Shown piece after piece: positions 34,904-62,609 of a stretch of DNA of 64,000 bases. The stretch is taken from the NCBI GenBank assembly GCA_024304885.1, contig JALJOM010000003.1, positions 2,018,110-2,082,109 on the forward strand, read 5' to 3'. The stretch comes from Beijerinckiaceae bacterium. GTDB lineage: Bacteria > Pseudomonadota > Alphaproteobacteria > Rhizobiales > Beijerinckiaceae. Below the pieces are notes generated by a model. That model was not told where the DNA came from and made no database searches. It saw nothing but the letters and a program-made list of their open reading frames with translations. Every line of letters starts with the position of its first letter. Positions within the stretch are counted from its first letter, which is position 1. The translations under genes and the position numbers were made by a program.

Positions 34904-36643
34904 ATGCCGCAACGCTCGCCAAAAGACCGCAATGTCCCGCGCCGACGGTTCGGTACCCCGGAGCCCGATGCGCAGCGTAAGCCTGCCCCGCGCGGGAAGG
35001 GCTCGTCGGCGGCGACGCCCGAGGTGCGCGAGCAGCCTACGACGGAGCGAATCGCCAAGATCATGGCCCGGGCCGGGGCCTGTTCGCGGCGCGACGCCGA
35101 GACCTGGATCGAGGAGGGCCGCGTCGCGGTCAACGGCGAGGTTCTGCTGGACCCGGCCTTCAACGTCGGCGACGACGACGTGATCACGATCGACGGGACG
35201 CCGCTCCCGCGCCGCGCCCGCACCCGGCTCTTTCGCTTCCACAAGCCGCGCGGCCTCGTCTCGACCGACCACGATCCGGAAGGCCGGCCGACCATCTTCG
35301 ATCATTTGCGCGAGCATTGGTCGGGCGGCCCGCGGGTCGTGAGCGTCGGCCGGCTCGATATCAATACCGAGGGGCTGATGCTCCTCACCAACGACGGCGG
35401 GCTCGCGCGGGTGCTCGAGCTTCCCTCGACGGGCTGGGTTCGGCGCTATCGCGTGCGGGTGAACGGCGAGACGGATCAGGCCACGCTCGACGGCTTGCGC
35501 CGAGGGGTCACCATCGACGGCGTCTCCTACGCCGGGATCGAGGCGACGCTCGACCGCGTTCAAGGCGCCAATTGCTGGCTCACCCTGTCGCTGCGCGAGG
35601 GCAAGAACCGCGAGGTCAAGCGCGTGCTCGAGCATCTCGGCCTTGCGGTCAACCGGCTGATCCGGCTCTCGTTCGGCCCGTTCCAGCTCGGCGAGCTCGC
35701 CGAGGGCGCGGTCGAGGAGGTCCGCACCAAGGTGCTGCGCGATCAGCTCGGGCCCTCGCTGGCGAAAGCCGCAGGCGCCGATTTCACGAGTCCCTCGGGG
35801 GAGGAGGAGAGCGTCTCTCCGCCCGCGGAAAAGGTGAGACGCGAGCCGGAGCGCCGGTCGGGGCAAGGTCGCCGTCCGAGCGACGAACCACGGCCAAGAC
35901 CAAGACCTACGGATGGACCACGGGCGACAGCGCGCGCGACCGACGCAGGCTCACGGGCGCCGACACCCGCCGCGGTCCCCAAGGTGAAGCCCCCGTCTCG
36001 CGTGCGCAAGCATGTCTCGGTCTTGCGCCGCCAGGAGGCCGAGGCACAGGGCGGGCCGCGCAAGCGGATTGAAAGGGGCGAAACCGCCGACCGGAGCGGT
36101 CGGGTCGTTTCGGTCGAGCGTGTTGTCGCGGTGGCGCCGAAGCCCGCCGAGACGAAGGGCAGGACCCGCAATGCTCGCCACTTCGAAGCCCTGCGCAAGG
36201 GTCCCGAAGGTGCCGCAGAGCGCAAGCCACGCGGTCCGAAATCCCGCGCCTCTGGAGCAACTTCCAGCGAAGCGGACGCCGGCTCGCGTCGCGAGATTGC
36301 GACAAGACGAGAAAATAGGGTGGGTTCCAAGCGGATCGGAAACCGCCCCAGTGCGAGGCCGGACGGACAAGAGTCTCGGCACCGGTCGCTGCCGGAGCGC
36401 ACGTCCGCGCGGCCGAGGAGTGGCGAGGCTGCGGCAGGACGGGCGGAACGACGCGAACGGCCGAACAGCGCGGCAGGTGGCCCGACGCCCTATCGGTCGC
36501 AGAAGCGTGCACCCGCGAAGACTCGGACGGACGGTGCCCATCCTGGGGCGCGCGCGGAGCGCAAGCCCGCCGGGAAGAGGCCGCCCGACGGCGGCCATCC
36601 GAAGGGACGGAACCGACCCGGGTCGCCTCCCCGCAAGGGTTGA
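34904..36643 (+). CDS. RluB/RsuA-type pseudouridine synthase with long basic tail
   Basis: A 579-residue protein. Residues 45-105 are an S4 RNA-binding domain (RIAKIMARAGACSRRDAETWIEEGRVAVNG). Residues 108-285 are the synthase core, with catalytic Asp in VGRLDINTEGLMLLTNDG and LREGKNREVKRVLEHLGL. It modifies a uridine in rRNA. The remaining ~290 residues are an Arg/Ala/Pro/Gly-rich disordered tail, about doubling the usual length. Codons 451-482 of this tail are a copy of the dispersed ~100-bp repeat in reverse orientation, so a repeat insertion has been absorbed in frame. Confidence 0.9.
   Translation: MPQRSPKDRNVPRRRFGTPEPDAQRKPAPRGKGSSAATPEVREQPTTERIAKIMARAGACSRRDAETWIEEGRVAVNGEVLLDPAFNVGDDDVITIDGTPLPRRARTRLFRFHKPRGLVSTDHDPEGRPTIFDHLREHWSGGPRVVSVGRLDINTEGLMLLTNDGGLARVLELPSTGWVRRYRVRVNGETDQATLDGLRRGVTIDGVSYAGIEATLDRVQGANCWLTLSLREGKNREVKRVLEHLGLAVNRLIRLSFGPFQLGELAEGAVEEVRTKVLRDQLGPSLAKAAGADFTSPSGEEESVSPPAEKVRREPERRSGQGRRPSDEPRPRPRPTDGPRATARATDAGSRAPTPAAVPKVKPPSRVRKHVSVLRRQEAEAQGGPRKRIERGETADRSGRVVSVERVVAVAPKPAETKGRTRNARHFEALRKGPEGAAERKPRGPKSRASGATSSEADAGSRREIATRRENRVGSKRIGNRPSARPDGQESRHRSLPERTSARPRSGEAAAGRAERRERPNSAAGGPTPYRSQKRAPAKTRTDGAHPGARAERKPAGKRPPDGGHPKGRNRPGSPPRKG
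36254..36350 (-). repeat. Dispersed repeat, copy B, inside a coding region
   Basis: Reverse orientation relative to copy A. On the minus strand it starts GGGGCGGTTTCCGATCCGC, contains TGTCGCAATCTCGCGACGCG, and ends CGCTGGAAGTTGCTC. It encodes part of the disordered tail of the pseudouridine synthase. Confidence 0.7.
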
Positions 36644-47004: not shown

Positions 47005-48291
<1,287 letters not shown>

Positions 48292-48383
48292 GGGGATTCC
48301 GAGCGTCTGGGACATACCGAGAACATCGGTAGTGCTGTTTGACATCGTGAAAGAAACGACGGAACAATTGCTTAGCGGCAAGA
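48292..48383 (+). promoter_or_regulatory. CRISPR leader with array promoter
   Basis: Between cas2 and the first repeat. It contains TTGACA (48339-48344), 18 bases, AACAAT (48363-48368), placing a transcript start near 48375, just before repeat 1. The stretch is less GC-rich than its surroundings, and the distal repeats at the other end are degenerate, so this is the leader side. Confidence 0.65.
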
Positions 48384-49693
48384 GTGTTCCCCGCACACGC
48401 GGGGATGAACCGGTGAAGAGCTTCCCGGCGAGCGGTGCCAGCATGTGTTCCCCGCACACGCGGGGATGAACCGGCCGCCGGCGGATCGATCATCATCGCA
48501 TTCGCGTGTTCCCCGCACACGCGGGGATGAACCGACAAGAGCGGCTATTGAGGCATGAACGGGAAAGTGTTCCCCGCACACGCGGGGATGAACCGCCGCG
48601 AATGACGATCGGGAAGGCCGGCTGCAAGTGTTCCCCGCACACGCGGGGATGAACCGAGATCATTCAGGTTTTGGAAGAGCGCGAGTGTGTGTTCCCCGCA
48701 CACGCGGGGATGAACCGCTTTGATGGTGCAGGCCAGGAACGAGCTGGACGTGTTCCCCGCACACGCGGGGATGAACCGGGGGCGCCATTCGTCCATTCGA
48801 GTAATTGAAAGTGTTCCCCGCACACGCGGGGATGAACCGTTCGACAGACGAATCCGCAAGCGCGGACTCGAGTGTTCCCCGCACACGCGGGGATGAACCG
48901 GCGAATGCATCCGGACTCTGGCCTTACGACGCGTGTTCCCCGCACACGCGGGGATGAACCGCAGGTCTTCCTTTTGTTCAGGCGACATAGACCGTGTTCC
49001 CCGCACACGCGGGGATGAACCTCGATCCGCCACGTCGAGCGATCACCCCACGACGTGTTCCCCGCACACGCGGGGATGAACCGCCTTCAGCAACAGCGTC
49101 CCGCTGCTCTGGGTAGTGTTCCCCGCACACGCGGGGATGAACCGACTGAGGAACGCGGCTTGCGCGTATCTCATGGGTGTTCCCCGCACACGCGGGGATG
49201 AACCGCCATTGCATCAATCTTCTGCGCTCGTCAAAATGTGTTCCCCGCACACGCGGGGATGAACCGGACGGGCCGGAAAAAAATCTGGCATTGATGGTGT
49301 GTTCCCCGCACACGCGGGGATGAACCGACTCCCGGAATTGGCGACCGTCTGGCTCTAGCGTGTTCCCCGCACACGCGGGGATGAACCGCATCCCGCCATT
49401 GCGGGCAAGCGCATAACCGCGTGTTCCCCGCACACGCGGGGATGAACCGTCGGCGATGTTCGTCCCAACCGCAGTTGCGTTGTGTTCCCCGCACACGCGG
49501 GGATGAACCGCCAGGCGCGCGCTTGCGCAAAACTCCGCCGGAGTGTTCCCCGCACACGCGGGGATGAACCGACGGGTGGTATGTGCGCAGCGAGATCGTG
49601 TGGGTGTTCCTCGCACACGCGGGGATGAACCGCAATGAGCCACCACTATGGTATGTGATAAGAGGTGTTCCCCGCACACGCGGAGATGAGCCG
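48384..49693 (+). CRISPR. Type I-E CRISPR array, 22 repeats and 21 spacers
   Basis: A 29-bp repeat starts GTGTTCCCCGCACACG and ends GGGGATGAACCG, with the palindromic stem CCCCGC / GCGGGG. Units recur exactly every 61 bp from 48384 to 49665, so all 21 spacers are 32 bp. Variant repeats: 48994 (last base T), 49604 (one C to T change) and the final one at 49665 (two changes). The decay at the far end and the leader at 48292 give the same polarity. All spacers differ. By eye I found none that clearly matches other DNA in this window. Confidence 0.98.
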
Positions 49694-49708
49694 GGCAACC
49701 ATCGATCA

Positions 49709-51094
49709 TCACTTCGGCTTCAACAGCAGCTTCGCTTTGTCGAGTTTGCCATCTGCTGTCAGAATATTCCTGTTGAAGTCATCGACGTATGCATCGGTAA
49801 TAGCCAAGGCCACCTTGCGTGAGAAGCGTGGCACTTTCGTCCATCCACTCTGAGTGCCGAACCATCGCTTACAGTAAGTTTCTCCGATCTTGAATCGTTC
49901 GGAGGTATCGTTGGTTCTGACCAGTTTCGCCATGAGCTTGCGTCGGTAGCGTGCCGTTCGCTCGGGTCCGGGTTTCACATGAACGGCATTGGCGCCATAG
50001 CCGTTTCCGGGCTCTAGCTTGTAGCCGAGAATATCGACCCGCCACGATCGAGCGTGGCGAGCCTTAGCTGGGTGAAGTTCAATCTGTCCGCCGGGGAGCG
50101 ACGAAAATGCTTCCGTCACTGCCCCAACCGCTGCTCCTATCTCCTGTTTCGTCGACGCGCCCACATGCAGGTTGTCAGCGAACGAATAGTGATGGACCCC
50201 AGGCGGCAATTGAGCCTGGCCCATCGCTCGTCGGACAACCGCGCGCGCCAGCAGCGGGCTTAACACCGAGCCTTGAGGTAGGCCCCGGCGAACGATCTGA
50301 ACGGTGAGAGAAGAAAGCTCCTTTTGGGAGACATTTCCCACCGAGAGATCGGGGTACAGGCCTTCGATGCTTTTGAAGACCTTGCCGATCTCCGCACCGG
50401 GGTTCTTGACCACGATCTCTGCACACTTCGGAAGATAGAAGACATTCTTCTTGATCCGCCGATCGATCGGCAACCATCCGAAGTGGCCTGGTCTGATGGA
50501 CGGGAAGCAGTTCCTTACGTCAGGCGTCCACCACCAGTTTATGCCGTCGACGATGTCGCGGCATACGGTCTCGACGAGACCCTTCTCGCCTTTCGCTCCT
50601 TTCCTCGTAAAATCGAAGTCGTTGTCGATGCCGATCACCGACAGCACGTCGCGGACCGCGAAAGCCTGCGCTCTCCTCATCGGTCCGGGAGCAACGATGG
50701 GGCGATATTCGCCAGGCTTCCCGGATTTCTCGCGCCAATAGACGAACACAGGCTCGGACAGCGTCTGCCATACGGTCAGTTCGTTCGCCCGTTTGACGAT
50801 CTCCGCGTAGGACAGAGTCGGCGCCAATTTCATGGAGGCTCGAACGACCGCACAGATATACGCTTCGACCGAACCCCAGATCATCCCATTGGCCACCTGA
50901 AGCTGCTTGCGCATTCCCTTGTGGCTGGCCGCAGTGACCTTCCGCAGCCGCCGAACATGGGTCTTCGCGTTATGGATCAGCATGCCGATCTCTGCGTCCG
51001 TCAGTTTGCCGGCATCGCGGATCACTTCGATCGCATCGAGGATTCCATCGCGTATCCGATCGATTTCGGTTGGCAAACTAGCTTGCTCGCTCAC
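49709..51094 (-). CDS. Reverse transcriptase of unassigned class, next to the CRISPR array
   Basis: A 461-residue protein from GTG 51094. The fingers-palm motifs are clear: RPIVAPGPMRRAQAFAVRDVL (131-151, motif 2), WWWTPDVRNCFPSIRPGHF (187-205, motif 3 with D192), VRRGLPQGSVLSPLLA (268-283, motif 4), and HHYSFADNLHVGAS (301-314, motif 5). The usual YxDD reads FADN (305-308), with Asn for the second Asp. The first ~120 residues are a helical N-terminal extension. No maturase, HNH, protease or Cas1 domain is fused. The gene is the last of an operon with two small helix-turn-helix genes. It ends 15 bp from the last CRISPR repeat, in convergent orientation. I do not recognise retron signatures. 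It may belong to the uncharacterised or defence-associated reverse transcriptases. Confidence 0.85.
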   Translation of the reverse strand: MSEQASLPTEIDRIRDGILDAIEVIRDAGKLTDAEIGMLIHNAKTHVRRLRKVTAASHKGMRKQLQVANGMIWGSVEAYICAVVRASMKLAPTLSYAEIVKRANELTVWQTLSEPVFVYWREKSGKPGEYRPIVAPGPMRRAQAFAVRDVLSVIGIDNDFDFTRKGAKGEKGLVETVCRDIVDGINWWWTPDVRNCFPSIRPGHFGWLPIDRRIKKNVFYLPKCAEIVVKNPGAEIGKVFKSIEGLYPDLSVGNVSQKELSSLTVQIVRRGLPQGSVLSPLLARAVVRRAMGQAQLPPGVHHYSFADNLHVGASTKQEIGAAVGAVTEAFSSLPGGQIELHPAKARHARSWRVDILGYKLEPGNGYGANAVHVKPGPERTARYRRKLMAKLVRTNDTSERFKIGETYCKRWFGTQSGWTKVPRFSRKVALAITDAYVDDFNRNILTADGKLDKAKLLLKPK

Positions 51095-51336
51095 GATGCA
51101 TCTCTCCCCAACGTCGCTGCCATGGCCTCGATTTCGGCTCTACGGTATTTCTTGTTGCGGCCGTGCTTGATTTGCGCCGGCATCTTCCCGGCGGCTTGCC
51201 ATCGACGGACTGTTCTGATCGTGACATTCAGTGTCGCCGCTGCTTCTCTGATCGTGATCAGCTCGAATTCATCGGATCGTGCTTTGGCGTGAGCAATTGC
51301 AGCGTCGAGATCGATAGTCTGAGGTTGCACGGTCAT
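51091..51336 (-). CDS. Small helix-turn-helix protein coupled to the reverse transcriptase
   Basis: An 81-residue protein. Residues ~25-70 form a MerR/Xis-type winged HTH: FELITIREAAATLNVTIRTVRRWQAAGKMPAQIKHGRNKKYRRAEIEAMAATL. Its stop overlaps the reverse transcriptase start (GTGA), so the two proteins are made together. A DNA- or nucleic-acid-binding partner or regulator of the transcriptase is the simplest reading. Confidence 0.78.
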   Translation of the reverse strand: MTVQPQTIDLDAAIAHAKARSDEFELITIREAAATLNVTIRTVRRWQAAGKMPAQIKHGRNKKYRRAEIEAMAATLGRDAS

Positions 51337-51382
51337 GGCGACAACTCGAATATGCCAGTAGCAATGTCACACTTCCGTGCAA

Positions 51383-51622
51383 TTATCGGTAGTGCGTAGC
51401 GTTCGGCGCCTCCTGGTGGGGAAGCAATTTACTTGTGCTTTCGCGAGTTCGCCCTGCGAGCCAGATATCGAGGTCGTCTTTGTCATAGACGACCACACGC
51501 TGCCCGACCTTAGCGAAACGAGGTCCACCTCCATAGCAACGCATTTTTGCAAGCGTAGAGGGCGCTATGCGCAGATAGGTCGCGGCTTCACGAGCACGCA
51601 TTTTTTGAAGCGTTGACGACAT
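51383..51622 (-). CDS. Small helix-turn-helix protein, first gene of the operon
   Basis: A 79-residue protein with an HTH_17-like fold: MRAREAATYLRIAPSTLAKMRCYGGGPRFAKVGQRVVVYDKDDLDIWLAGR. It belongs to the same broad class as the next gene but is not a close copy. It lies 46 bp upstream of it. GGAGG lies nine bases before ATG 51622, and this site is part of an inverted repeat (see 51631-51678). Confidence 0.78.
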   Translation of the reverse strand: MSSTLQKMRAREAATYLRIAPSTLAKMRCYGGGPRFAKVGQRVVVYDKDDLDIWLAGRTRESTSKLLPHQEAPNATHYR

Positions 51623-51630
51623 TTCGAGGA

Positions 51631-51678
51631 ACCTCCGTACCTCGGTGGATATGTAGTGAAGTCTACTGATACGGAGGT
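51631..51678 (-). promoter_or_regulatory. Inverted repeat covering the ribosome site of the RT operon
   Basis: On the minus strand ACCTCCGTA (51678-51670) can pair with TACGGAGGT (51639-51631). The second arm contains the GGAGG ribosome site for ATG 51622. Inside the 30-base loop GTAG-ACTTCA-CTAC (51666-51653) forms a second small hairpin. As RNA this would hide the start site. As DNA it could also be an operator for the helix-turn-helix protein. Inference from pairing only. Confidence 0.5.
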
Positions 51679-52343
51679 CGGGTGCAATGACTTATGTTCG
51701 TGGTGGGATGCTCGGTAGCCCACGGTGCCCGAGCAAGGCGATGCGAAGTAGCCGTCCCAAGAGCATGGCCGAGCAACGCTGAAAATGTCGTCATCGAATT
51801 GCCTGACGTGGTCGGAACACAGGAAGCTCGAATGAGAAACAGCTTCGACTGCGACGCCCATGATGCAGCTGATTCGTCGCCGGCGGTATTCCAACCCACA
51901 ACATTTGTGACAAGACATCGAGGCATGCGGGCACCCAAAGGGGGTGCGTCACATGGCTTTGGCATGCAAATTTCTCGGGCGAGGACAGAGTCTTGTCGCT
52001 CGGGGGACGGGTAGATGAAGAAGATGAGAAATCCAGAAGAGAGATTATCGGGATTTCTCGCGAGCACGAGGCCGGCGTGAGGGTAACGGATTTTGCGGGC
52101 AAATTGGCTGGTCGGGGAAACGCTGTTTTTCGGGCGCAATCACACCCATTGCGCAATGTTTGCCGCTTGGCGAATGATTACAGCCAGGAGCTGTCGCTCT
52201 CTGCGTCGACGCAGTTGACTATTGGATGCGTAAATTCGGAGCGTTTCGGCTCCTGTCGCGGCTCGGTCACACAGGGCGACATGGCAAGCCAAGCATAGAA
52301 TGGAAGCGGAACCCGGGTTCCGCTTCTCTGTGCCTTCGCCGTA
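51679..52343. other. Gene-free stretch with a 22-bp palindrome
   Basis: No convincing gene in 665 bp. Minus-strand frames up to 158 codons exist but look random in composition. Near the right end is a perfect 22-bp palindrome, AAGCGGAACCCGGGTTCCGCTT (52304-52325 by position), which could act as a terminator between this stretch and the gene ending at 52344. A transcript from here into the helix-turn-helix/reverse transcriptase operon is possible, so a non-coding RNA cannot be excluded. Confidence 0.4.
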
Positions 52344-53147
52344 TCAAGCGGCTATGGTCGCTCCTTCTTGTATTTCCTCGGTGGAATGTGCGTCTGTGAA
52401 GGCCTCGGCAAAGATTTGTGCACAGGCGGACGAGCCCAGTCTTTTGGCCGCGTATAGCATGAACTCGCTTACCTTCTCGTCGGAGCAGGCCATCACACGT
52501 TTCAGTAGGCTCGTCCCACCACAGAAGTCCGAGCACACGTATTCAAGCGCCTTGGCGTCTACCTTCACGCCGGACTGAGCCTTGGCTTTTTCGATTGCGG
52601 CATTAATCACGCCGACTTGCTCGTCGTCGAATTTGAAGACCTTCGCATGCTTCGCATTTGAGATAGCAGACGACTGGCTTCCCGACGTGGTAAGCTCGGC
52701 TTTCACAAGCTTGTAGAGGTCGTCTTTACTGTTTTTCAGAGCCAACTTCGCCCAGGCCTCGGCATTCTCCTTGTTCAATACGCGCACAAGGATGCGCATC
52801 TTTGTCCAACCGATGCCTTTGAACACATCGAGGCCAATCGGGAGCTGGCGCAGCTTCTCATAAATCGTGACGAAATATCTCGCCTTCCGTGCGCTCATCG
52901 CATATCGCTTTCCGACAAATTCTTCGATAGTCGTGTCGGGCTTGTACCAGCCCTCGGCCTTCACCTTCGAGAGCACGCCACCCATTGTGAAATAGCTCTC
53001 GTTGATAACTTCTTGCAGCTGTACGATGCGCTCGAGCGCCTGTCCCTTCGTCAGATGATCAATCTCGTGCACGATATCGTCCATATTATTGGACTCCACC
53101 GTCACGTGGTTCGCCGTCTTCGCTTTTTTGATAACTTTGATCGTCAC
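52344..53147 (-). CDS. IGWTK-motif protein, long form
   Basis: A 267-residue protein from GTG 53147, chosen because GGAGGAG (53163-53157) lies nine bases upstream. An inner ATG 53084 is possible. Layout: a Lys-rich lead-in (TIKVIKKAKTANHV). Then a helical domain (residues ~30-130: ALERIVQLQEVINESYFTMGGVLSKVKAEGWYK, RYAMSARKARYFVTIYEKL, GIGWTKMRILVRVLNKENAEAWAKLA). Then a C-terminal part starting KVFKFDDEQVGVINAAIEKAK. The last ~70 residues are Cys- and Ala-rich helix. It has the same overall layout as the divergent gene at 53560, so the two are paralogues. No enzyme motif. Function unknown. Confidence 0.6.
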   Translation of the reverse strand: MTIKVIKKAKTANHVTVESNNMDDIVHEIDHLTKGQALERIVQLQEVINESYFTMGGVLSKVKAEGWYKPDTTIEEFVGKRYAMSARKARYFVTIYEKLRQLPIGLDVFKGIGWTKMRILVRVLNKENAEAWAKLALKNSKDDLYKLVKAELTTSGSQSSAISNAKHAKVFKFDDEQVGVINAAIEKAKAQSGVKVDAKALEYVCSDFCGGTSLLKRVMACSDEKVSEFMLYAAKRLGSSACAQIFAEAFTDAHSTEEIQEGATIAA

Positions 53148-53559
53148 CGTTAAGCACTCCTCCAGCGGATGGCTCTCGCTGTCGGACCGCTGCTGGAAGG
53201 CGGACCGACAGCATTCTACTGTCAGTGCCATCGCAGCCCTCCATGGCTCCGGTGTATCGCGCATCAGATGCGTGAGTGCTTCCAATATAAGAATTTTCGT
53301 GAACCAGGGCAATAGCAAAAATGGCGAGGCCCCGGCGCTCAAGCACCACAAAGATCCCGGCATACCAAACCTATCGCAACTCCGCTCGATGCAAGCCCGA
53401 CGAGCGTCCCGAAGAATTAGATGAAATCTGTAGCACGACAAAATTTGATCCGCATGCAGTTTGGCTCAATGTAGAAAAACTATTTGTTGTGCGCTTTTCA
53501 TTTGTCCTCGTCCGCTTATAAGCTACGATTTATTTCACCTGCTCAAATGGAGAACTGAA
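53148..53559. promoter_or_regulatory. Divergent intergenic region of the IGWTK pair
   Basis: 412 bp between two paralogous genes read in opposite directions. Near the left gene an inverted repeat GCTGTCGG (53178-53185) / CCGACAGC (53205-53212) would form a hairpin in its leader. The right half is AT-rich (53430-53545), with TATAAG just before the right gene's leader. No gene seen. Confidence 0.4.
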
Positions 53560-54060
53560 TTGAATCCGAACAAGATTTACGAAAAAGCTCTTGAATTGCT
53601 CGTCACACTCGACGCCTCCTTCCTCGAGTTGGGCAAAATTCTCCGCCTGGCCCAGGACGAAGATCCTGCTCTGTTCCAACAGCTGTTGAAGATTCCGGGA
53701 CTGGGCAGAAGGCGATGTTATCACCTGGTAAAGATCGATCGGACCTTCGAGGGCTATGAAGTCGACAAAGAGATTCTGATCGCGATCGGATGGACGAAAC
53801 TGTCGATCATCGCGCCCCATGTGTCGCACGAGACTATCGGTCTTCTCCTCGCGCTGGCACAGAGCGTCAAGGCGCATACGTTGACTGCGATGGTCAAGGG
53901 CGAGGTACCGACAAAGAGTGTGCAGCTGTTTTTCAAGCCTGAGCAATACAGCGCTTATGTCAAGGCGCTACTAGGGCATGGCGCCGTGAAAAAGGGCGAT
54001 CGCCTCCAGAAACAGGAAGAAGCGATCTTGCATCTCATCGAGACCAGTTACGTAAAATAA
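53560..54060 (+). CDS. IGWTK-motif protein, short form
   Basis: A 166-residue protein from TTG 53560, with GGAG seven bases upstream. It follows the long form in order: a helical N-terminal region (YEKALELLVTLDASFLELGKILRLAQDED), a GLGRRRCYHLVKIDRTFEGYEVDKEI segment, IGWTKLSIIAPHVSHETIGLLLALAQSVKAHTLTAMVKGE, then VQLFFKPEQYSAYVKALLGHGA. Similar IGWTK segments occur in proteins of plasmids and phages whose function is not clear to me. Ends about 100 bp before the transposon. Confidence 0.6.
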   Translation: MNPNKIYEKALELLVTLDASFLELGKILRLAQDEDPALFQQLLKIPGLGRRRCYHLVKIDRTFEGYEVDKEILIAIGWTKLSIIAPHVSHETIGLLLALAQSVKAHTLTAMVKGEVPTKSVQLFFKPEQYSAYVKALLGHGAVKKGDRLQKQEEAILHLIETSYVK

Positions 54061-54155
54061 TAGTCGGGACGGTCACGTCGAGACATTCGTGGGGTAGCGT
54101 AGGCTCGACGTAGAATAGCCTGGTACACGTGCTGCCCAACACCAGCGAGACCCTG

Positions 54156-54163
54156 TTTACTAA
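54156..54163 (+). repeat. Target-site duplication, left copy
   Basis: TTTACTAA directly before the left inverted repeat. The identical TTTACTAA is at 57129-57136. Eight bases is the duplication length of the IS1595 family. Confidence 0.85.
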
Positions 54164-54228
54164 GGCGATTATATCTTTTGCGAACCACGCGAATCGGTTA
54201 GTAACGTTACAGCTACCGAGGATCGGCC

Positions 54229-54528
54229 ATGCAACCTTCGACCCCATGCGATGCGCTCGCAAACGGCAAACGCCTTGAACTTCGTTACGATGGATACTCA
54301 CGCGTCGTTGAGGTTCATGCCGTCGGCATTTCCAGTGACGGCAATTGGCTCATGCGCGTTTGGCAGGTTCGCGGCGGCAGTGTCCATAACGAACCTGTCG
54401 GATGGAAGCTGATGCGACTCGACGAAGGCTTCTCTGCATATGTCCTCAATGAGGATTCCGTTGCTCCCCGCCCAGGCTACAAGCGGGGCGACAGAGCCAT
54501 GCCGCGCGGCATCAAGTGCCAGCTCTAG
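54229..54528 (+). CDS. Small WYL-like beta-rich protein (transposon cargo)
   Basis: A 99-residue protein. The core LELRYDGYSRVVEVHAVGISSDGNWLMRVWQVRGGS ... VGWKLMRLDE resembles the WYL ligand-sensing fold on its own, without a helix-turn-helix. The C terminus has PGYKRGDRAMPRGIKC. Such stand-alone proteins are frequent as hypothetical genes. It reads rightward from the left end of the transposon. Confidence 0.55.
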   Translation: MQPSTPCDALANGKRLELRYDGYSRVVEVHAVGISSDGNWLMRVWQVRGGSVHNEPVGWKLMRLDEGFSAYVLNEDSVAPRPGYKRGDRAMPRGIKCQL

Positions 54529-54622
54529 CCCGCAATCACACGGCCCAACCGGGAGCGCCGGAGCGTTATTCGTGGCGCAGTCACTAAGGTGCATATGCGC
54601 TCCGGCGGATCAAGAACCCGGT

Positions 54623-54805
54623 TCACTGGCCGGGTTTCTTCGGTTTCGGTTGCTTCGGTTCAACGGGCTTGTCAGGCGGGGGCCTGTGCCGCGCGACCTT
54701 CTTTAGCGCTTCCTCGAAATGCGACTCGTCCTCGTCGCAGCCGAGTTCGCGAGCGGCCTCAATGAATGCCCGCACCTGTCCTGCCGGTTCTTTGCGCTTT
54801 GTCAT
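54623..54805 (-). CDS. 60-residue hypothetical protein (transposon cargo)
   Basis: MTKRKEPAGQVRAFIEAARELGCDEDESHFEEALKKVARH, then a Pro/Lys tail (KPVEPKQPKPKKPGQ). I recall similar small proteins in this bacterial order but no known role. Its start overlaps the end of the PIN gene by 47 bp. GTG 54775 would reduce the overlap to 17 bp. Confidence 0.5.
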   Translation of the reverse strand: MTKRKEPAGQVRAFIEAARELGCDEDESHFEEALKKVARHRPPPDKPVEPKQPKPKKPGQ

Positions 54806-55328
54806 CTTCTACAAGTCCGAGCTGCCTGTATTTGTCCGGCAAACATAGCGTTGCCCGTCCAGATCCGATACGCAACCCAAGCTTGGCCAATTTATCAGCA
54901 TGTGTTGTTAATCGTAGAAGCCGACCATTTGTTGTCAACAATTCTTCGCACTTTCTGTCAAGCGCTGACGCAACATGAATGGAATCAGCGCCCTTCAGGG
55001 CTATGCCATGTTTCCAACGAAGATCACGTGCGTCTTCTCCGATAAATGGAGTTGTTTGTACAAGCTTAACGTATTGCCCTGACATCAAAATCGTTGAGAA
55101 TGCATTCTTGACTGCTTCGCTAATGTCTGTATCGCCGATATGTGTACATTCAGCAATTGTGAGAGTCGACGTAAAAATTTCTATCTCTTTATCACGACTC
55201 GCCTCAAGAAGCTTCTTCATATGCCAGACATCTTGCTCGCGATCTGTCGCGAGCGTCTTACCAATCGACGTCTTAACCATGTCGATGAAAGCACATGCAT
55301 CAATATAGAGTCGCCTAAACTCAACCAT
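54759..55328 (-). CDS. PIN-domain protein, putative ribonuclease (transposon cargo)
   Basis: A 189-residue protein. PIN acids: D10 in LYIDACAFIDMVK, Glu in STLTIAECTHIGD (~60) and Asp in LKGADSIHVASALDRKCEELLTTNGRLLRL (~124-127). Such enzymes are metal-dependent RNases, often toxins. Its start overlaps the end of the 264-residue gene by 8 bp, so the two are translationally coupled like a toxin-antitoxin or enzyme-partner pair. The partner does not look like any usual VapB-type antitoxin. Confidence 0.82.
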   Translation of the reverse strand: MVEFRRLYIDACAFIDMVKTSIGKTLATDREQDVWHMKKLLEASRDKEIEIFTSTLTIAECTHIGDTDISEAVKNAFSTILMSGQYVKLVQTTPFIGEDARDLRWKHGIALKGADSIHVASALDRKCEELLTTNGRLLRLTTHADKLAKLGLRIGSGRATLCLPDKYRQLGLVEDDKAQRTGRTGAGIH

Positions 55329-56115
55329 CGGCGTAAGTCTCTAATGCATCGTCCGATTCAAATAAAGGCGCGCTCCCGAAAAACTCCTCAAACTCCGAAG
55401 AGGATAGCATCCTAACCTTTCGAATTTGCTCCGCTCTTAATTCGACTGCCTGTCGCGTAGCTCTGTCAAATAACATATCTCCACTAACCATCAGTATGGT
55501 GGTTCGTTCTTTGACAGCATCGGCAACTGAACTGTAAAGAGTTGGTGGATATAAAATCTTAATTAGTACATCAGTAGATAGCTCACGAAGCTGAAAATTC
55601 GGCTCTCGAGCCTCCTTATACCAAGCGTGCAAAATGCCTTGGGCAGACCCATAAGACGGTATAGGCGTCTCTACGTGACGACGAAGAGCGGCGGTCGCAT
55701 TATACGTAATGCTTCTCCACTTAGGTTTCCCGCCTTTAGCTTTATATATTCCTAGGCCAATAACCTCGTCAGGATCAATAAGAGTGCCGATCCGCGCATA
55801 TTCAAGAATCGTCGCGGGGCGTACGCCAAAATTCAAATCTTCACTATCTGGGTCGAAATCCGCAAGCCCTTCAAGATAACGAGCAAATAATTGTACAGCC
55901 CCGGTGTCCACATCGTCTTGAAATTCGGCGTCATATTCAACGGAACCATTTTTGAAGTTCGCAGCTAGCCATTCTCCGGGCCGCGTCTCAATATCACAAT
56001 CAGCCGCAAGCGCTCTGAGAAACTTTTCCGCTTGCTCAGATATTTTGCCAAGCTTCGCCATAGGCGCGCCATGGCGGCCCTTATTGATGGCAAACCTCAC
56101 CTTGATACGCGGCAT
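55321..56115 (-). CDS. 264-residue partner of the PIN protein (transposon cargo)
   Basis: A 264-residue protein of unknown family. It has an N-terminal helical part (AKLGKISEQAEKFLRALAADCDIETRPGEWLAANFKNGSVEYDAEF), a middle with FGVRPATILEYARIGTLIDPDEVIGLGIYKAKGGKPKWRSITY, and an acidic C terminus (SSSEFEEFFGSAPLFESDDALETYADG). The acidic tail could bind the PIN protein. GC is lower than the backbone. Upstream of the PIN gene with 8-bp overlap. Confidence 0.62.
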   Translation of the reverse strand: MPRIKVRFAINKGRHGAPMAKLGKISEQAEKFLRALAADCDIETRPGEWLAANFKNGSVEYDAEFQDDVDTGAVQLFARYLEGLADFDPDSEDLNFGVRPATILEYARIGTLIDPDEVIGLGIYKAKGGKPKWRSITYNATAALRRHVETPIPSYGSAQGILHAWYKEAREPNFQLRELSTDVLIKILYPPTLYSSVADAVKERTTILMVSGDMLFDRATRQAVELRAEQIRKVRMLSSSEFEEFFGSAPLFESDDALETYADG

Positions 56116-56153
56116 CGCGATCCGACCGTTACAGCTCTCATGCCATCTGTACT

Positions 56154-57062
56154 CTATTCGGCCGATGAGTCCCGGTAAAGCAGCCTCTTCCCCTTCACGC
56201 CTTCCAAGGCACGATGCGCCCTTTCGGCGTCGTCAATTCCAAGCGCGACGCGATTGTTATACCGGAAATCGAACTCGGCGACGTAGCGGTGCAGGTGCTT
56301 CTCGCCGCAATGCTGATACACTCCCTTCATGCCGCGCTTGAAGATGCTGTAGAAACCCTCGACCGTGTTGGTGTGGACCTTGCCGCGGCCATATTCGCCG
56401 GCGCCATGGTTGACGTAATCATGGCTCGCGAAATCCTTCGCTAGGTGCGTGTACTGGCCGGCCTCGTCGGTCATAACCGAGGCTTCCTTAGCGATGTTGG
56501 CGCGAAGGATCGGCACAAGATGCGCGGCCGACGTGCCGTCAACATGGAAGCTGCGAACCGTGCCGCCGCGCTCCACAAGCGACAGGACGGCATGCTTGTG
56601 GGCATAGCCGCGGCGCTTCGGCATATCCTTTTTCTGACCGATGAAAGTCTCGTCGATTTCGATAATCTCGCCAGCACCACCCATGGGGGCAAGATCGCCG
56701 GAGCGCATAGCCTCACGAATGCGATGCGCGAGGAACCATGCGGCCTTGTAAGTGATCTCTAGAACCCGGTGCAGCTGATGCGCGCTGATGCCCTTCTTCG
56801 ACGAGGTCATCAGATAGACAGCCTGTAGCACCTTGTTCAGCGGGATATGGGCCTGCTCGAAAACCGTGCCGACCTTCACCGTGAACTGCTTTCGGCAATC
56901 GGAGCACTTGCGGAGGCCCATGCGGGTTTTGCGCAGATCATAGTGCTTGCCACTGACCGAGCCACAATGCGGGCAAACCAGGCCCTCGGGCCACAACACG
57001 CTTTCGAGATATTCGAAAGCCTTGGCCTCGTCGTGAAAGTAGGGCTTGGACAGGACAGACAT
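56154..57062 (-). CDS. tnp: IS1595-family (ISXO2-like) transposase
   Basis: A 302-residue transposase. The N-terminal zinc ribbon has CPHCG and CSDCRKQFTVKVGTVFE. The RNase H core has IIEIDETFIGQKK (first Asp), SVMTDEAGQYTHLAKDF (second Asp), and NHGAGEYGRGKVHTNTVEGFYSIFKRGMKGVYQH with the Asn/Glu of the third position. The length is normal for the family (290-310) and there is no frameshift, so it is probably active. Confidence 0.95.
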   Translation of the reverse strand: MSVLSKPYFHDEAKAFEYLESVLWPEGLVCPHCGSVSGKHYDLRKTRMGLRKCSDCRKQFTVKVGTVFEQAHIPLNKVLQAVYLMTSSKKGISAHQLHRVLEITYKAAWFLAHRIREAMRSGDLAPMGGAGEIIEIDETFIGQKKDMPKRRGYAHKHAVLSLVERGGTVRSFHVDGTSAAHLVPILRANIAKEASVMTDEAGQYTHLAKDFASHDYVNHGAGEYGRGKVHTNTVEGFYSIFKRGMKGVYQHCGEKHLHRYVAEFDFRYNNRVALGIDDAERAHRALEGVKGKRLLYRDSSAE

Positions 57063-57128
57063 TGCGGTAGCTCCGACGTTGAAGCTACCCTACATCATTT
57101 TTCGTGGTTTGCAAAGGATATAATCGCC

Positions 57129-57136
57129 TTTACTAA
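57129..57136 (+). repeat. Target-site duplication, right copy
   Basis: TTTACTAA directly after the right inverted repeat, identical to 54156-54163. Confidence 0.85.
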
Positions 57137-57217
57137 CCGCTCGTGATGCGTTCTGCTGGTTTCGTCTCCGGCCACGTAGACGATGGTCGCGTGCCGGTGC
57201 GGCAGGAGGGATATCCC

Positions 57218-57647: not shown

Positions 57648-59423
57648 ATGGTCACCATACCAAGCTCACGATCGAACAAAAACATTGCTGCACCCACTGA
57701 TCTTGAAACGCTCGCCGCTCTACTGGCGGTGATCGAAACCGACGATGGTCTTCCCGCCAAGCGCCGTGCGGACATTTGTTCCGGCGTGCGCTCGCTCTGC
57801 CGTGCCATGAACTTGCAGCCCGAGAGCACACCAGTCGATCCGAGAGTGATCGGAGATCGGCTTTCGGTGATGACACCTGTTGTGGCGGGCATGAAGAAAG
57901 GGCGGTTCCAAAACTGCAAATCTTTCATGGATGCGGCGCTCGCCTATGCGGATGCGCGATTTCATCGCCGTCGGAACAAAGCGCCGCTAGCCCCGGAATA
58001 TGTATCGCTTCTCGAGAAAGCTCCTGACCGGTGGGTCGCGGCAAGGCTGCGTCGCTTGTTTCACTTCGCCACGGAGCGGGGTGTCAAACCCGAAGAGATC
58101 GACGATGCATTATTTGAGGCCTTCCTCGAGCATCTGGAATGCAGCACGCTGCCGAACTTCAGGTCGGTCGACCGAACGACGAGGAAAAACTGGAACGCTC
58201 TCGCGGCGAAAGTGCCCGGCTGGCCCGCGGGCCCCGTAGGGGTGCCGTCCTACGTCGATCACTACGTCTTGTCGCCGGACGCATTCCCGCAGACTCTATG
58301 GGACGACGTCGATGCGTACCTCGCGTCACGTCTGTCGAAAGGCCCTGCCAATCTCGACGATCTCCTCTCCGAGGAAGAATTGTTCGGTGGTGCCGAGGCT
58401 GTAGAAAGCCGGTCCTCGCACGTTCGCGAATCGACCGCCGGCTTGATCCGCTACCGCGTGCGTCAATTCGCATCCGCCGTCGTGCTTCGGAACATCATGC
58501 ATCCGGATCAGCTCACCGGTCTGAAAGTGCTGGTCGCCCCGCCGACGGTGAGTGCCGGACTGAAATTCTTCATCCAAAGGGCCGGCAAGCAGCGGAATTC
58601 GCAAATCCGCGGTCTCGCCTCCGACCTGTTCATGATCGCCAAGCTGTGGGTACGAAGCTCCGACGAAGAACTCGCGAAGCTCGCCACCATCTGCAATAAG
58701 GTGCGGCCACACCACGAGGGGTTGCCGGAAAGCGCACGTCGCTCGCTCGCCCCGTTTCGTGACCCGGCCAATGTCCGCAAGTTCCTTGCGTTGCCCGACC
58801 GCATCATCAAGGACGCCGAGCGGCAGAAGACAATCGACCGGGCGACGGCGAACCGCGTGGCGACGGCGCTCTGGATCAAGATCGCACAGCGTGCGCCGCT
58901 GCGGATTTCGAACCTGCTCGAGACCGATCTGTCCAAGAATATCCTGCGGTCTCACAGCGGCAAGGATGCTTCGGTCGCGCTCTTCTATCTCCCTGATCAG
59001 GTCAAGAACGCGAAGGCACTCGAGGTGCCGCTGCCTCAAGGAACCGTGAAGCTCCTCGATCTTTATCTGCAGAAATACCGCAAGGCGCTGGTCGATACGC
59101 CGAGCCCCTGGCTGTTCCCCGCCCCCGACGGAAGTCCGAAACGGCCCAACGTCATGTCCAGCGACATCCAGCGCCTCATGCGCGACGATCTCGGATTTGC
59201 GATCAACCCGCACAGCTTCAGGCATGTGGCAGCCAAGCTCTATCTGTCGATACATCCCGGCCGCTATGTCGACGTGCAGCTGCTGCTCGGACACCGCAAG
59301 CTCGAAACGACGGTCAAATATTACTGTGAGCTGGAGGCAGAGGAAGCCTTCAAGCATTTCGACGCGATCTTGTTGAAGCTCGAAGAAGCGACCGAACCGA
59401 AGAGAGGGACCTATGAGCCATAA
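57648..59423 (+). CDS. Large tyrosine recombinase
   Basis: A 591-residue protein, with GGAG eight bases before ATG. The N-terminal ~380 residues are a long, mostly helical region with no phage arm-binding domain. The catalytic domain holds Arg in APLRISNLLETDL, HSFRHVAAKLYL (HxxR), and LLGHRKLETTVKYY (His and Tyr nucleophile). Lys is likely in PDQVKNAKALEVPL. Long recombinases of this kind occur with a second recombinase in the same operon on integrative elements. It overlaps the next gene by 11 bp. Confidence 0.85.
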   Translation: MVTIPSSRSNKNIAAPTDLETLAALLAVIETDDGLPAKRRADICSGVRSLCRAMNLQPESTPVDPRVIGDRLSVMTPVVAGMKKGRFQNCKSFMDAALAYADARFHRRRNKAPLAPEYVSLLEKAPDRWVAARLRRLFHFATERGVKPEEIDDALFEAFLEHLECSTLPNFRSVDRTTRKNWNALAAKVPGWPAGPVGVPSYVDHYVLSPDAFPQTLWDDVDAYLASRLSKGPANLDDLLSEEELFGGAEAVESRSSHVRESTAGLIRYRVRQFASAVVLRNIMHPDQLTGLKVLVAPPTVSAGLKFFIQRAGKQRNSQIRGLASDLFMIAKLWVRSSDEELAKLATICNKVRPHHEGLPESARRSLAPFRDPANVRKFLALPDRIIKDAERQKTIDRATANRVATALWIKIAQRAPLRISNLLETDLSKNILRSHSGKDASVALFYLPDQVKNAKALEVPLPQGTVKLLDLYLQKYRKALVDTPSPWLFPAPDGSPKRPNVMSSDIQRLMRDDLGFAINPHSFRHVAAKLYLSIHPGRYVDVQLLLGHRKLETTVKYYCELEAEEAFKHFDAILLKLEEATEPKRGTYEP

Positions 59424-60498
59424 TAACTTCTATGGCCGCGCATTGCCGCTTTCGAAGTGGCCGGAGCCGGATCGCCTTGCCTGGATCGATGCCCAGGCCG
59501 AAGACGACGATCTCCTCGGGATTCGCCGGCCCGCAGCTCGCTGGCGTGCGAGCACGAAAGAGCTCCACAGCCGCTGTTACGGGATTTGGCTCGCGTGGCT
59601 CCACTCGCAAAACCTGCTCCACGCCCACGAGGCCCCCGCGGATCGGGTGACGAAAGCGAGGCTCGCTGCCTATCTACAAGCCGAGCACGCTTCCGGAAAC
59701 ACGGCTCGCACGCTCATCAATCACGCCGTCGGTCTGCGCCACATGTTCGAGGCCCTCACGCCCGAGCGCGATTGGACGTGGATGCTGCCGATGATCGGCA
59801 AGTTGAAGACGGCGGTAACGCCGACAAGAAACCATTCCGATCTTCCCTCGATCCGTCAGCTCTTCGAGCTGGGGCTCGCTCTGACCCAACGTGCGGAATG
59901 CGAAGGCACCGGCACGTTGAAACAACGTGCGATCGTATTTCGAAACGGGTTGGCGATCGCCATGCTCGCTGCACGCCCTCTGATGAGACGTGCCAATCTC
60001 GCGTCGATAAAGATCGGCGAGCATCTCTCGAGGGAAGGCGCCACCTATCGCTTGCAATTCTCCGACGAGGAGATGAAAGGTCGGCGCAAGCGGGGTGGGC
60101 TGCTGCCTCAGATGCTTACCGCCCCGATTGAACGATATATCGATCTTTATCGACCGGCCCTCCTCGGGTCGAAACCTGATCCTGACGGCGTCCAGTTCAT
60201 TTCTGCCCTCGGCCGCCCGATCTGTCCCCATGCTCTGTCACACGAGATCGGTAAAGTGACGGATGCCGTCTTCGGCCGGCGGATCACGACACACGAGTTT
60301 CGCCACGCGGCGGTGAGCTCTATCGCGAAGGAGGACCCTGCCCATGTGGGAATCGTTCCTTCGGTCCTGGGGCATGCCGACTACCGGACGTCCGAGGCAT
60401 ATTACGTATTCGCTGACGAGCACGCAGCCTTCCAGCGTCTCGATAGAGCAGTGGAAGCGCTGATCTCCGGCAAGCACGACATGGATCACGAAGCCTGA
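59413..60498 (+). CDS. Second tyrosine recombinase
   Basis: A 361-residue recombinase from ATG 59413, inside the end of the previous gene. It has a SAM-like N-terminal domain (RWRASTKELHSRCYGIWLAWLHSQN ... LINHAVGLRHMFEAL). The catalytic domain has Arg in RPLMRRANLASI, Lys in DEEMKGRRKRGG, HEFRHAAVSS and LGHADYRTSEAYY. It has only moderate likeness to the 591-residue protein. Translation coupling suggests the two work as a pair. Confidence 0.88.
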   Translation: MSHNNFYGRALPLSKWPEPDRLAWIDAQAEDDDLLGIRRPAARWRASTKELHSRCYGIWLAWLHSQNLLHAHEAPADRVTKARLAAYLQAEHASGNTARTLINHAVGLRHMFEALTPERDWTWMLPMIGKLKTAVTPTRNHSDLPSIRQLFELGLALTQRAECEGTGTLKQRAIVFRNGLAIAMLAARPLMRRANLASIKIGEHLSREGATYRLQFSDEEMKGRRKRGGLLPQMLTAPIERYIDLYRPALLGSKPDPDGVQFISALGRPICPHALSHEIGKVTDAVFGRRITTHEFRHAAVSSIAKEDPAHVGIVPSVLGHADYRTSEAYYVFADEHAAFQRLDRAVEALISGKHDMDHEA

Positions 60499-60954: not shown

Positions 60955-62562
60955 ATGACCCGTGCCGCTATCTATGTTCGCGTTTCGACGATTCGCCAGG
61001 CAGAGCGAGACTTGTCGCTTCCCGACCAGCTTGCCCAGTGCCGTGCCTATTGCGAACGGCATGGGTGGGAGATCGCGGAGGTCTTTTCGGAACCCGGCGC
61101 ATCGGCGCTCGACGATGATCGGCCTGTCTTTCAAGAAATGATCTACAAGGCGACACGCGCCGATCGCCCTTTCGACTATGTCGTCGTTCATTCGCTGAGC
61201 CGCTTCAGCCGTGATGCGCTTCATTCCGAGCTCTATGTCCGCAAGCTGCGCAAGGCCGGCGTCGAGCTCGTCTCGATCACACAAGCCGTCGCACCCGACG
61301 CAAGCGGCGAGATGGTCCGCAAGCTCCTGAACGTCTTCGACGAGCATCAATCGCGGGAGAATGCGAAACACGTCCATCGGGCCATGTGCGAGAATGCCCG
61401 GCAGGGCTTCTGGAACGGCTCGCATGCGCCCTACGGCTATCGGGTCGAGGTCGCCGAACGGCGGGGAAACAAGGACAAGAAGGTCCTCGTCGTCCACGAG
61501 GACGAGGCGAGGATCGTACGACAGATTTTCGCAATGGCGGCCGGCGCAGAGGGCAGACCGATGGGCGTGAAGGCCATTGCAACCTACTTCAACGAGCGTG
61601 GCATATTGCGTCGAGGTCGCAAGTTCGCGACCGGCAGCCTCTACGACCTGCTCACCTCGACCACCTATTGCGGCCGCCATTACTTCAATCAAACCGACAG
61701 TCGCAACGGAACGCCACGGCCGCCGTCGCAGTGGATCGAGCTCAGGGTTCCAGCCCTCGTCGACGAGGAAGCGTTCAATGCCGTGCAAGGCGTGCTGAAG
61801 AGCCGCAATCCAAAACGGCTGCCGCCCCGCGTCGCCAATGGCCCGACCTTCCTCGCAGGGCTTGCCCGCTGTGGTCACTGTGGCGCGGCCTTGATCCAGA
61901 ACACCGGCAAGGGTGGTGCCTACCGCTACTATTGCTGCTCACGGAAGCTGAAGGAGGGTCCGACGGCCTGCCGAGGCATGCGTATCCGCATGGACAAGCT
62001 CGACGGCATCGTTATCGGCGAAGTCGCGAAGAGGGTGCTCGAGCCCGAGCGGCTGACCGAGATGCTGCAAGTCTATGTCAAAGCCGCATCCGACCGCGAG
62101 AACGCCGACCGTGATCGGCTGGCCAAGCTACGACGCGATCAGGCTGACGCCGAGGCCGGGATCATGCGGCTGCTCGAACTCGTCGAGAAGGGACTGATGC
62201 ATGCCGAGGACGCGGAGCTGCGGGAGCGTTTGATCGGCCTGAAACTGCGGCGGGACGAAGCTGCCAAGGAAATCTCCTTGATCAAGGAGCGCATGGCGAC
62301 GGGTGAACCCGGGGTCACGCCGGAGAAGGTCCGACGTCTCGCCATCCTTCTCCGAGAGAAGCTCTACGACGGCCCGCCGGAATTGCGTCAGGCCTATGCC
62401 CGGCTGCTCATGGAGGAAGTGTCGGTCAGCGACAAGGAAATCCGGATCAGCGGCTCGAAGCAGGTGCTGGCACGGGCTGTGACCGAGGGAACGGATGTAC
62501 CCGTGCCCGCGGTTCTCTCTTTTGTTCAGGACTGGCGCGCCCGAAGAGATTCGAACTCCTGA
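60955..62562 (+). CDS. Large serine recombinase ending inside tRNA-Arg
   Basis: A 535-residue recombinase. The resolvase domain has the nucleophile S11 in IYVRVSTIRQAERD, and VVHSLSRFSRDALHSELYVRKLRKAGVELVSITQ. A recombinase domain follows (~165-265, APYGYRVE, GVKAIATYFNERGI). The zinc ribbon has CGHCG ... YCCS ... C. A coiled-coil follows, then the C-terminal arm. The last codons (RARRDSNS) are read from the antisense strand of tRNA-Arg, ending 30 bp inside it. This overlap suggests that the gene's end is formed by the attachment site on integration. Confidence 0.9.
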   Translation: MTRAAIYVRVSTIRQAERDLSLPDQLAQCRAYCERHGWEIAEVFSEPGASALDDDRPVFQEMIYKATRADRPFDYVVVHSLSRFSRDALHSELYVRKLRKAGVELVSITQAVAPDASGEMVRKLLNVFDEHQSRENAKHVHRAMCENARQGFWNGSHAPYGYRVEVAERRGNKDKKVLVVHEDEARIVRQIFAMAAGAEGRPMGVKAIATYFNERGILRRGRKFATGSLYDLLTSTTYCGRHYFNQTDSRNGTPRPPSQWIELRVPALVDEEAFNAVQGVLKSRNPKRLPPRVANGPTFLAGLARCGHCGAALIQNTGKGGAYRYYCCSRKLKEGPTACRGMRIRMDKLDGIVIGEVAKRVLEPERLTEMLQVYVKAASDRENADRDRLAKLRRDQADAEAGIMRLLELVEKGLMHAEDAELRERLIGLKLRRDEAAKEISLIKERMATGEPGVTPEKVRRLAILLREKLYDGPPELRQAYARLLMEEVSVSDKEIRISGSKQVLARAVTEGTDVPVPAVLSFVQDWRARRDSNS

Positions 62563-62609
62563 CCCCTAGATTCGTAGTCTAGTGCTCTATCCAGCTGAGC
62601 TACGGGCGC
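62533..62609 (-). tRNA. tRNA-Arg (ACG)
   Basis: A 77-base tRNA on the minus strand. The acceptor GCGCCCG (62609-62603) pairs with CGGGCGC, then discriminator G62536 and CCA (62535-62533). The anticodon loop CTACGAA gives ACG, read as ICG after TadA. The 3' end faces the accessory region, as expected for an integration site. Confidence 0.96.

Follow-up and report, generated by a model that had tools for sequence, protein, structure and literature searches.

A rare, island-borne lineage of bacterial reverse transcriptases with frequent anti-phage neighbours and a frequently altered motif C

Helix-turn-helix (HTH) partners occur in some retrons. The DRT10 (UG17) system combines a reverse transcriptase (RT), a partner protein and an upstream RNA, and a tyrosine recombinase lies beside two of three systems, according to the available excerpts of PMC12632851. 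Type I-E CRISPR loci of Streptomyces have adjoining RTs with a WGDD motif (PMC6013744 and PMC8934634, as excerpted); a first-pass annotation of the DNA studied here, in which CRISPR-linked RTs were taken to be Cas1 fusions in type III systems, was incomplete on this point. Within the excerpts available, no paper describing the RT family reported below was found, and the one literature match for YADN together with 'reverse transcriptase' was a paper on E. coli W.

The window, a 64,000-nucleotide stretch of a Beijerinckiaceae genome (contig JALJOM010000003.1), carries a member of this family. The family itself, its island setting and its recurrent partners are well supported: its members are rare, reside on mobile islands of bacterial genomes, commonly have anti-phage genes for neighbours and in many cases deviate in motif C. 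We regard it as roughly an even question whether the reading we favour holds for the window RT: a stand-alone enzyme of group II descent that integrative islands carry as accessory cargo and that most likely serves as an anti-phage or anti-element system.

The RT gene, its relatives and their kinship

The RT and its neighbours in the window are as follows.
49709..51094, minus strand: stand-alone RT, 461 aa, motif C FADN (RVT_1, 40.7 bits; in a clade of 11 intact RTs, support 100/98)
51091..51336, minus strand: HTH1, 81-aa HTH_17 protein (HTH_17, 2.3e-9; 4-bp overlap with the RT start)
51383..51622, minus strand: HTH2, 79-aa HTH_17 protein (HTH_17, 7e-7, scanned as 51395-51622)
51623..52343, minus strand: intergenic stretch of 721 bp upstream of HTH2 that could hold a promoter or RNA (fold scan)
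52344..53150, minus strand (that of the RT): GWTK gene 1, 268 aa (PHROG 17202, 8e-39; kin in phages; start codon at 53150 chosen by us)
53461..54060, plus strand: GWTK gene 2, 199 aa, divergent from the RT operon
57648..60498, plus strand: two tyrosine recombinases of the island, 591 and 361 aa (Phage_integrase; homologs of two recombinases near the G553 RT, 25% and 31%)

The RT gene is a single open frame with a GTG start, and such an RT is present once in the source genome. It matched Pfam RVT_1 (cut-off 29.6 bits) and no second Pfam domain at E ≤ 1, which confirmed the earlier description of a 461-residue RT with FADN replacing YxDD and no fused domain. Motifs A and B read PDVRNCFPS and RRGLPQGS. 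Structure prediction from four sequences gave no usable model (pLDDT 40.8, pTM 0.32).

Twelve relatives were found, giving 13 RT loci with the window. The RT is intact in 11 of these; that of Bosea has an internal stop, and the N-terminus of that of G714 is missing from the same ORF. Identity of the relatives to the window RT is 16-25%. A single-protein search with the window RT found no relative in the plasmids, phages, genome_contigs or viral_contigs collections. When whole genomes were searched, 3 of 199 in the family sample matched, the window's own included (yielding G011 and G187); this and the other prevalence figures are low estimates, because the family-sample search missed G033, whose RT was found via integrase flanks. 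Three of 385 genomes in the class sample matched, yielding G553, and the third, G201, was a generic RT. A four-row profile matched 15 of 385 genomes at 1e-8 and yielded G434; a five-row profile matched 13 of 397 at 1e-12 and yielded G858, G606, G650 and G714. The phylum sample (23 of 398 matched) held no further kin among the part of the matches that was read, and those of the weaker profile matches (below about 87 bits) that were read were group II RTs. A degenerate DNA pattern, GL-P-QG-[SA] followed by xDN, matched six times in genome_contigs and not at all in viral_contigs; three of the six were chance matches and three were RTs, from a Bosea MAG, Mesorhizobium loti and a MAG labelled Acidimicrobiales (L083). 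L083 is a 4.2-kb contig with an integrase, an HTH gene and the family RT, and its taxonomic label may be a binning error.

A maximum-likelihood tree was built from 32 RT domains with the motif C columns omitted. Its 21 references were eight group II, five retron, three Abi (AbiK/Abi-like), one Cas1-fused, one DGR, one DRT10 and two phage RTs; the tree lacks most UG groups, many of which are covered by PADLOC models. The 11 intact family RTs formed one clade apart from all 21 references (bootstrap 100, SH-aLRT 98), in agreement with earlier tree versions, and the tree program flagged the window RT as a long branch, with a warning that such branches attract one another. Within the clade the window and G553 RTs paired (92/90). 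The window RT thus fell outside the group II, retron, Abi, DGR and DRT10 sequences included, and the earlier statement that it fits neither Cas1-fused RTs (one row) nor retrons (five rows) was supported. In a blastp comparison of the window RT with 29 sequences, itself left out, the top seven partners held five family members before the first group II RT.

The family does not match the PADLOC class models, its scores lying far below those of true members: the best UG match was UG4 for the window (20.4 bits) and UG4 (56.5 bits, G858) and UG17 (54.7 bits, G434) for the family, against 446 bits for a true retron, 485 for DRT10 and 680 for AbiK. Generic RT and Cas-RT models gave 32-62 bits on the family. 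The only NCBIfam RT model to match the window RT at E ≤ 0.1 was TIGR04416 (39.6 bits, cut-off 300), and the G011 RT has an RVT_N-like N-terminus (24.4 bits, below the 28.1 cut-off); together these two matches suggest group II descent. The maturase domain GIIM was absent from the nine family RTs scanned (control L106, 46.4 bits), and no Rfam match of any kind was obtained in window positions 47900-57200 at E ≤ 1. Judged from such similarities, the family most likely descends from group II intron RTs but has neither a maturase domain nor a recognisable intron RNA.

Two named classes were set aside for the window RT. As a group II intron RT it has no GIIM and no intron RNA match and lies outside the eight group II rows; as a retron it lies outside the five retron rows, with a best retron-type score of 11.1 bits against 446 for a true retron, and the VTG string, a retron motif, is absent from it. 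For DGRs, no TR/VR-like pair was noted among the repeats of window positions 36500-63500, and a single DGR row was present in the tree.

Partner genes and the island setting

HTH1 and HTH2 belong to the HTH_17/MerR/excisionase-like class. The RT had been described as co-translated with two HTH genes; the 4-bp overlap agrees with this for HTH1, but HTH2, farther upstream of the RT, is separated from HTH1 by 46 bp without overlap. The span then annotated ended at 51678, 56 bp past the HTH2 start. HTH1 is 48% identical over 52 aa to the HTH protein adjoining the G553 RT, and HTH2 is 54% identical over 65 aa to that adjoining the G033 RT. Five of the 13 loci have an HTH_17 gene next to the RT: upstream in the window (twice), G553, the L083 MAG and G033, and downstream in G187. 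An HTH gene of another kind lies upstream of the RT in G434, and none was found in G650 or G714. Thus an HTH gene beside the RT recurs in relatives, while the exact HTH-HTH-RT order occurs in the window alone. HTH_17-like hits also turned up in 8 of the 31 control loci, which measure 4-20 kb and all stem from one family of genomes. Such hits are expected near recombinases, so the HTH genes could belong to recombination.

A second kind of partner, absent from the first-pass annotation, was named GWTK here after a shared motif. The window's two GWTK genes are related to each other. Gene 1 has matches in 49 phage records, the 20 listed being 79-110 kb, and is 33% identical over 203 aa to a gene beside the G650 RT; gene 2 is 29% identical over 175 aa to the divergent gene beside the G033 RT and 36% over 96 aa to that beside the G606 RT. 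GWTK genes were present in 5 of 13 RT loci (the window, twice, G606, G033, G650 and G714) against 0 of 31 controls, and in all five loci one copy is divergent from the RT operon. Neither HTH_17 nor GWTK was found in G858, G011, M. loti, Bosea or G434.

In 11 of 13 loci the RT has a tyrosine recombinase no more than 6.6 kb away, or in 10 of 12 by the fairer count, since G033 was found through its integrase. The two genes overlap by 4 bp in G011 and Bosea and are 0.2 kb apart in G187 and G033, 0.8-3.4 kb apart in G858, the L083 MAG, G434, G553 and G606, and 6.4 kb apart in M. loti. The distance in the window is 6.6 kb, with an IS1595-type unit intervening. No recombinase was found in G650 or G714 within the 18-20 kb fetched. 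A tRNA gene lies beside the RT locus in 7 of 13 cases. Homology unites the integrases of the G187, G011, Bosea, G434, G858 and M. loti loci, and two of the three recombinases in G553 are homologs of the window's pair.

This proximity, and the two loci in which the RT overlaps the integrase end by 4 bp, could mean that the RT and its HTH partner act in the life cycle of the island itself, be it excision, integration or copying, and not in defence. The resemblance of HTH_17 to excisionases (PHROG 66) and the agreement of recombinase type with RT kinship for the window and G553 point the same way. Against this, most recombinases of both types had no RT in the flanks seen. The G011-type integrase occurs at 21 places in 109 genomes of the family; of the 20 other flanks fetched, one (G033) had a family RT, making 2 of 21. 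For the window's first recombinase type (TR1), a family RT adjoined none of the 12 places fetched out of 30 others. The RT relatives also accompany at least two unrelated recombinase types, and G650 and G714 have no recombinase nearby. In one control locus (L119, 9292-13808), a tRNA-Met gene, an integrase and two small genes are followed by a retron-type RT in the same integrase-side slot. Since most integrase places seen lack the family RT and the L119 slot holds another, the RT is probably cargo and dispensable for the integrases, and a life-cycle role is unlikely.

Several further features of the window's island were recorded. The intervening 2.97-kb IS1595-type unit (54162-57130) is bounded by 28-bp inverted repeats and holds two genes besides its transposase (56154-57062): one encodes a PIN-domain protein (54759-55328), the other a 264-aa protein that belongs to no known family. 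Within 60955-62609, a large serine recombinase (CcrB-like, far below the cut-off) overlaps by 30 bp the 3' end of a tRNA-Arg gene (62533-62609, minus strand), which is likely to be an attachment site; a search for a second copy of this site found none in the window. The regions downstream of rsmD in five of nine same-genus genomes contained nothing of window positions 37.2-64 kb, but their gene order differs and they do not delimit an empty site. About 100 bases of a pseudouridine synthase gene (36249-36349) match some 35 other places in the same genome at 74-89%.

Motif C, a possible RNA partner and the CRISPR array

The FADN motif is no oddity of one gene: xDN recurs across the family. It is present in 7 of 11 intact RTs: FADN in the window, YADN in G187, G858 and the L083 MAG, YVDN in G606, YCDN in M. 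loti and HCDN in G011. The M. loti, Bosea and L083 RTs were found by a pattern that requires DN, and without them the count is 5 of 9. The broken Bosea gene also has xDN (HCDN). The xDD RTs are those of G553, G434, G033 and G650, the last reading LADD. At least four changes between DN and DD are required on the tree. Such recurrent changes, together with the 16-25% identity to the window RT noted above, could mark a former polymerase that is now a relic or a nucleic-acid-binding regulator, with xDN as the sign of loss. The motif A aspartate and the first motif C aspartate are, however, invariant in 10 of 10 aligned sequences, motif B is kept, 11 of 13 genes are intact and DD members persist within the clade, so that loss of polymerase function appears decidedly improbable. 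In viral polymerases, substitutions at the second motif C Asp reduce activity or shift the metal requirement, and Birnaviridae and Mononegavirales have Asn at this position, according to the available part of PMC4634563. By analogy, Asn in place of the second motif C Asp need not abolish RT activity.

The 721-bp stretch upstream of HTH2 could hold a non-coding RNA that is new and hence unrecognised, in which case the operon would be a retron-like or DRT-like system, for which the upstream RNA, partner and recombinases of DRT10 (PMC12632851, as excerpted) are a precedent. Fold z-scores in the stretch were -3.61 at 51919-52066 and -2.66 at 52200-52343; the lowest of the 396 windows scanned was -3.83, so the fold at -3.61 does not lie beyond the extremes. 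No Rfam match was obtained in this stretch, and the loci of 8 of the 12 relatives gave only tRNAs at the gathering score. The G033 locus leaves little room, with 66 bp between HTH and GWTK and 99 bp between HTH and RT, and the class models score far below true members. An unrecognised relative of retrons or DRTs that carries an RNA of its own is therefore improbable, slightly more so than a relic enzyme.

The CRISPR locus of the window is a complete type I-E system: Cas3, Cse1, Cse2, Cas7, Cas5, Cas6e, Cas1e and Cas2e all match NCBIfam models. The cas operon is on the plus strand, and the array has 22 repeats with a 61-bp period. The final repeat ends at 49693, confirming that the RT gene stops 15 bp from it. 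The RT side is the trailer end, because the last two repeats are degenerate, and new spacers enter arrays at the leader, the opposite end. The RT gene is separate from cas1 and convergent with the array. Among the 12 relatives, 11 of the loci fetched held no CRISPR array, and in none of the 12 did any of the eight Cas proteins of the window have a homolog. Arrays were likewise absent from the 31 control loci. The convergence on the type I-E array, remarked in the first-pass annotation, is a real arrangement, but probably incidental, given the trailer-end position and the 11 relatives' loci without an array.

The exception is G650, in which two ORFs (L073, 152-3480) match successive parts of Cas13a (7os0, E 2.6e-26 and 1.1e-31). 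This Cas13a-like gene is split into two overlapping ORFs, and three 36-bp repeats, a short array, lie about 3.8-4 kb from the RT; the family may thus have a loose link to CRISPR islands. A CRISPR-coupled RT was set aside for the window, where the gene is separate and convergent at the trailer end with no Cas1 fusion. Cooperation of the RT with the type I-E system next to it, such as a part in spacer acquisition from RNA, is very improbable: the 15-bp distance, the G650 array and the lack of arrays in controls favour it, but the RT sits at the degenerate end of a convergent array, the other relatives' loci lack arrays, none of the 12 has homologs of these Cas proteins, and the CRISPR kinds of the window and G650 differ.

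Defence genes, proposed working and described systems

Defence genes were found in 8 of 13 RT loci among selected ORFs scanned. Besides type I-E CRISPR-Cas in the window, they comprise a CBASS cyclase (605 bits) and effector (316 bits) in G553, DpdE (624 bits) and a DrmMI-like protein in G434, type I methyltransferases (714-912 bits) in G858, G606 and M. loti, Dcm (257 bits) and Vsr (91 bits) in G011, and, in G650, the Cas13a-like ORFs and array with a candidate defence gene, PDC-M11A (294 bits). A weak TmtA match in G033 (51 bits) was not counted. The M. loti island (L094, 6321-9541) also carries a PRTase-CE conflict protein (168 bits) and a 641-aa partner without a PADLOC match. Homologs of 12 such defence proteins were found in 0 of 31 control loci, a comparison that is biased, since the ORFs to be scanned were chosen by hand and the queries for the controls were taken from RT loci. 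With leave-one-out queries from other loci, HsdM was found in 3 of 11 RT loci against 0 of 31 controls (Fisher p 0.014).

Defence is accordingly the likeliest use of the RT on the basis of gene neighbourhood, yet islands carry defence genes anyway. The RTs probably belong to a gene set that is as yet uncharacterised and may be defensive. For regulation, template, product and protection by the operon, we infer the following from the gene arrangement. As accessory cargo of the island, the RT would be carried near a recombinase, with HTH_17 and/or a divergent GWTK protein accompanying many members, and the operon would defend island and host cell from phages or competing elements. The HTH protein may hold operon expression low until infection relieves the repression; alternatively, the GWTK protein, kin of a siphophage protein, may sense or mimic a phage component. 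The RT might then make DNA that blocks infection or stops the cell. A more specific version is tentative and on the whole not expected to hold, though less improbable than a life-cycle role: a distinct RT immune module in which HTH is a switch, GWTK (with kin in siphophages of 79-110 kb) a sensor or decoy, and the Asp-to-Asn RT an enzyme with altered metal use, speed or template need, unusual by design and not dead. If true, bacterial RT immunity would extend past the classes modelled in PADLOC 2.0, and islands would use yet another RT. The phage-like GWTK partner would offer a concrete trigger hypothesis, and the clade provides natural xDN/xDD pairs among near kin for a test of the second motif C aspartate in RTs.

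Compared with described systems, the window RT resembles RTs of CRISPR loci (RT-Cas1 and those of Streptomyces type I-E) in lying beside a CRISPR locus. It differs from RT-Cas1 in having no Cas1 fusion and in lying outside the Cas1-fused RT in the tree, and from the Streptomyces RTs in FADN against WGDD (PMC6013744, available part). With group II intron RTs of the LtrA type the family shares the TIGR04416 match and, in G011, the RVT_N-like N-terminus, whereas motif B is GTPQG in the group II rows and of the GLPQGS type in the family, which has neither GIIM (0 of 9) nor an intron RNA match. The position of the RT as integrase-side cargo is shared with retrons; the window RT departs from these in the missing VTG, in its place outside the five retron rows and in weak matches to retron class models. 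From DRT10 (UG17) the family is set apart by UG17 scores of 35-55 bits in three relatives, with none reported for the window, against 485 for true DRT10, and by the SLATT partner, which is absent from the window operon. With DRT10 and other UG/Abi defence RTs it nevertheless has in common a stand-alone RT, a partner gene, a defence-island setting and nearby recombinases.
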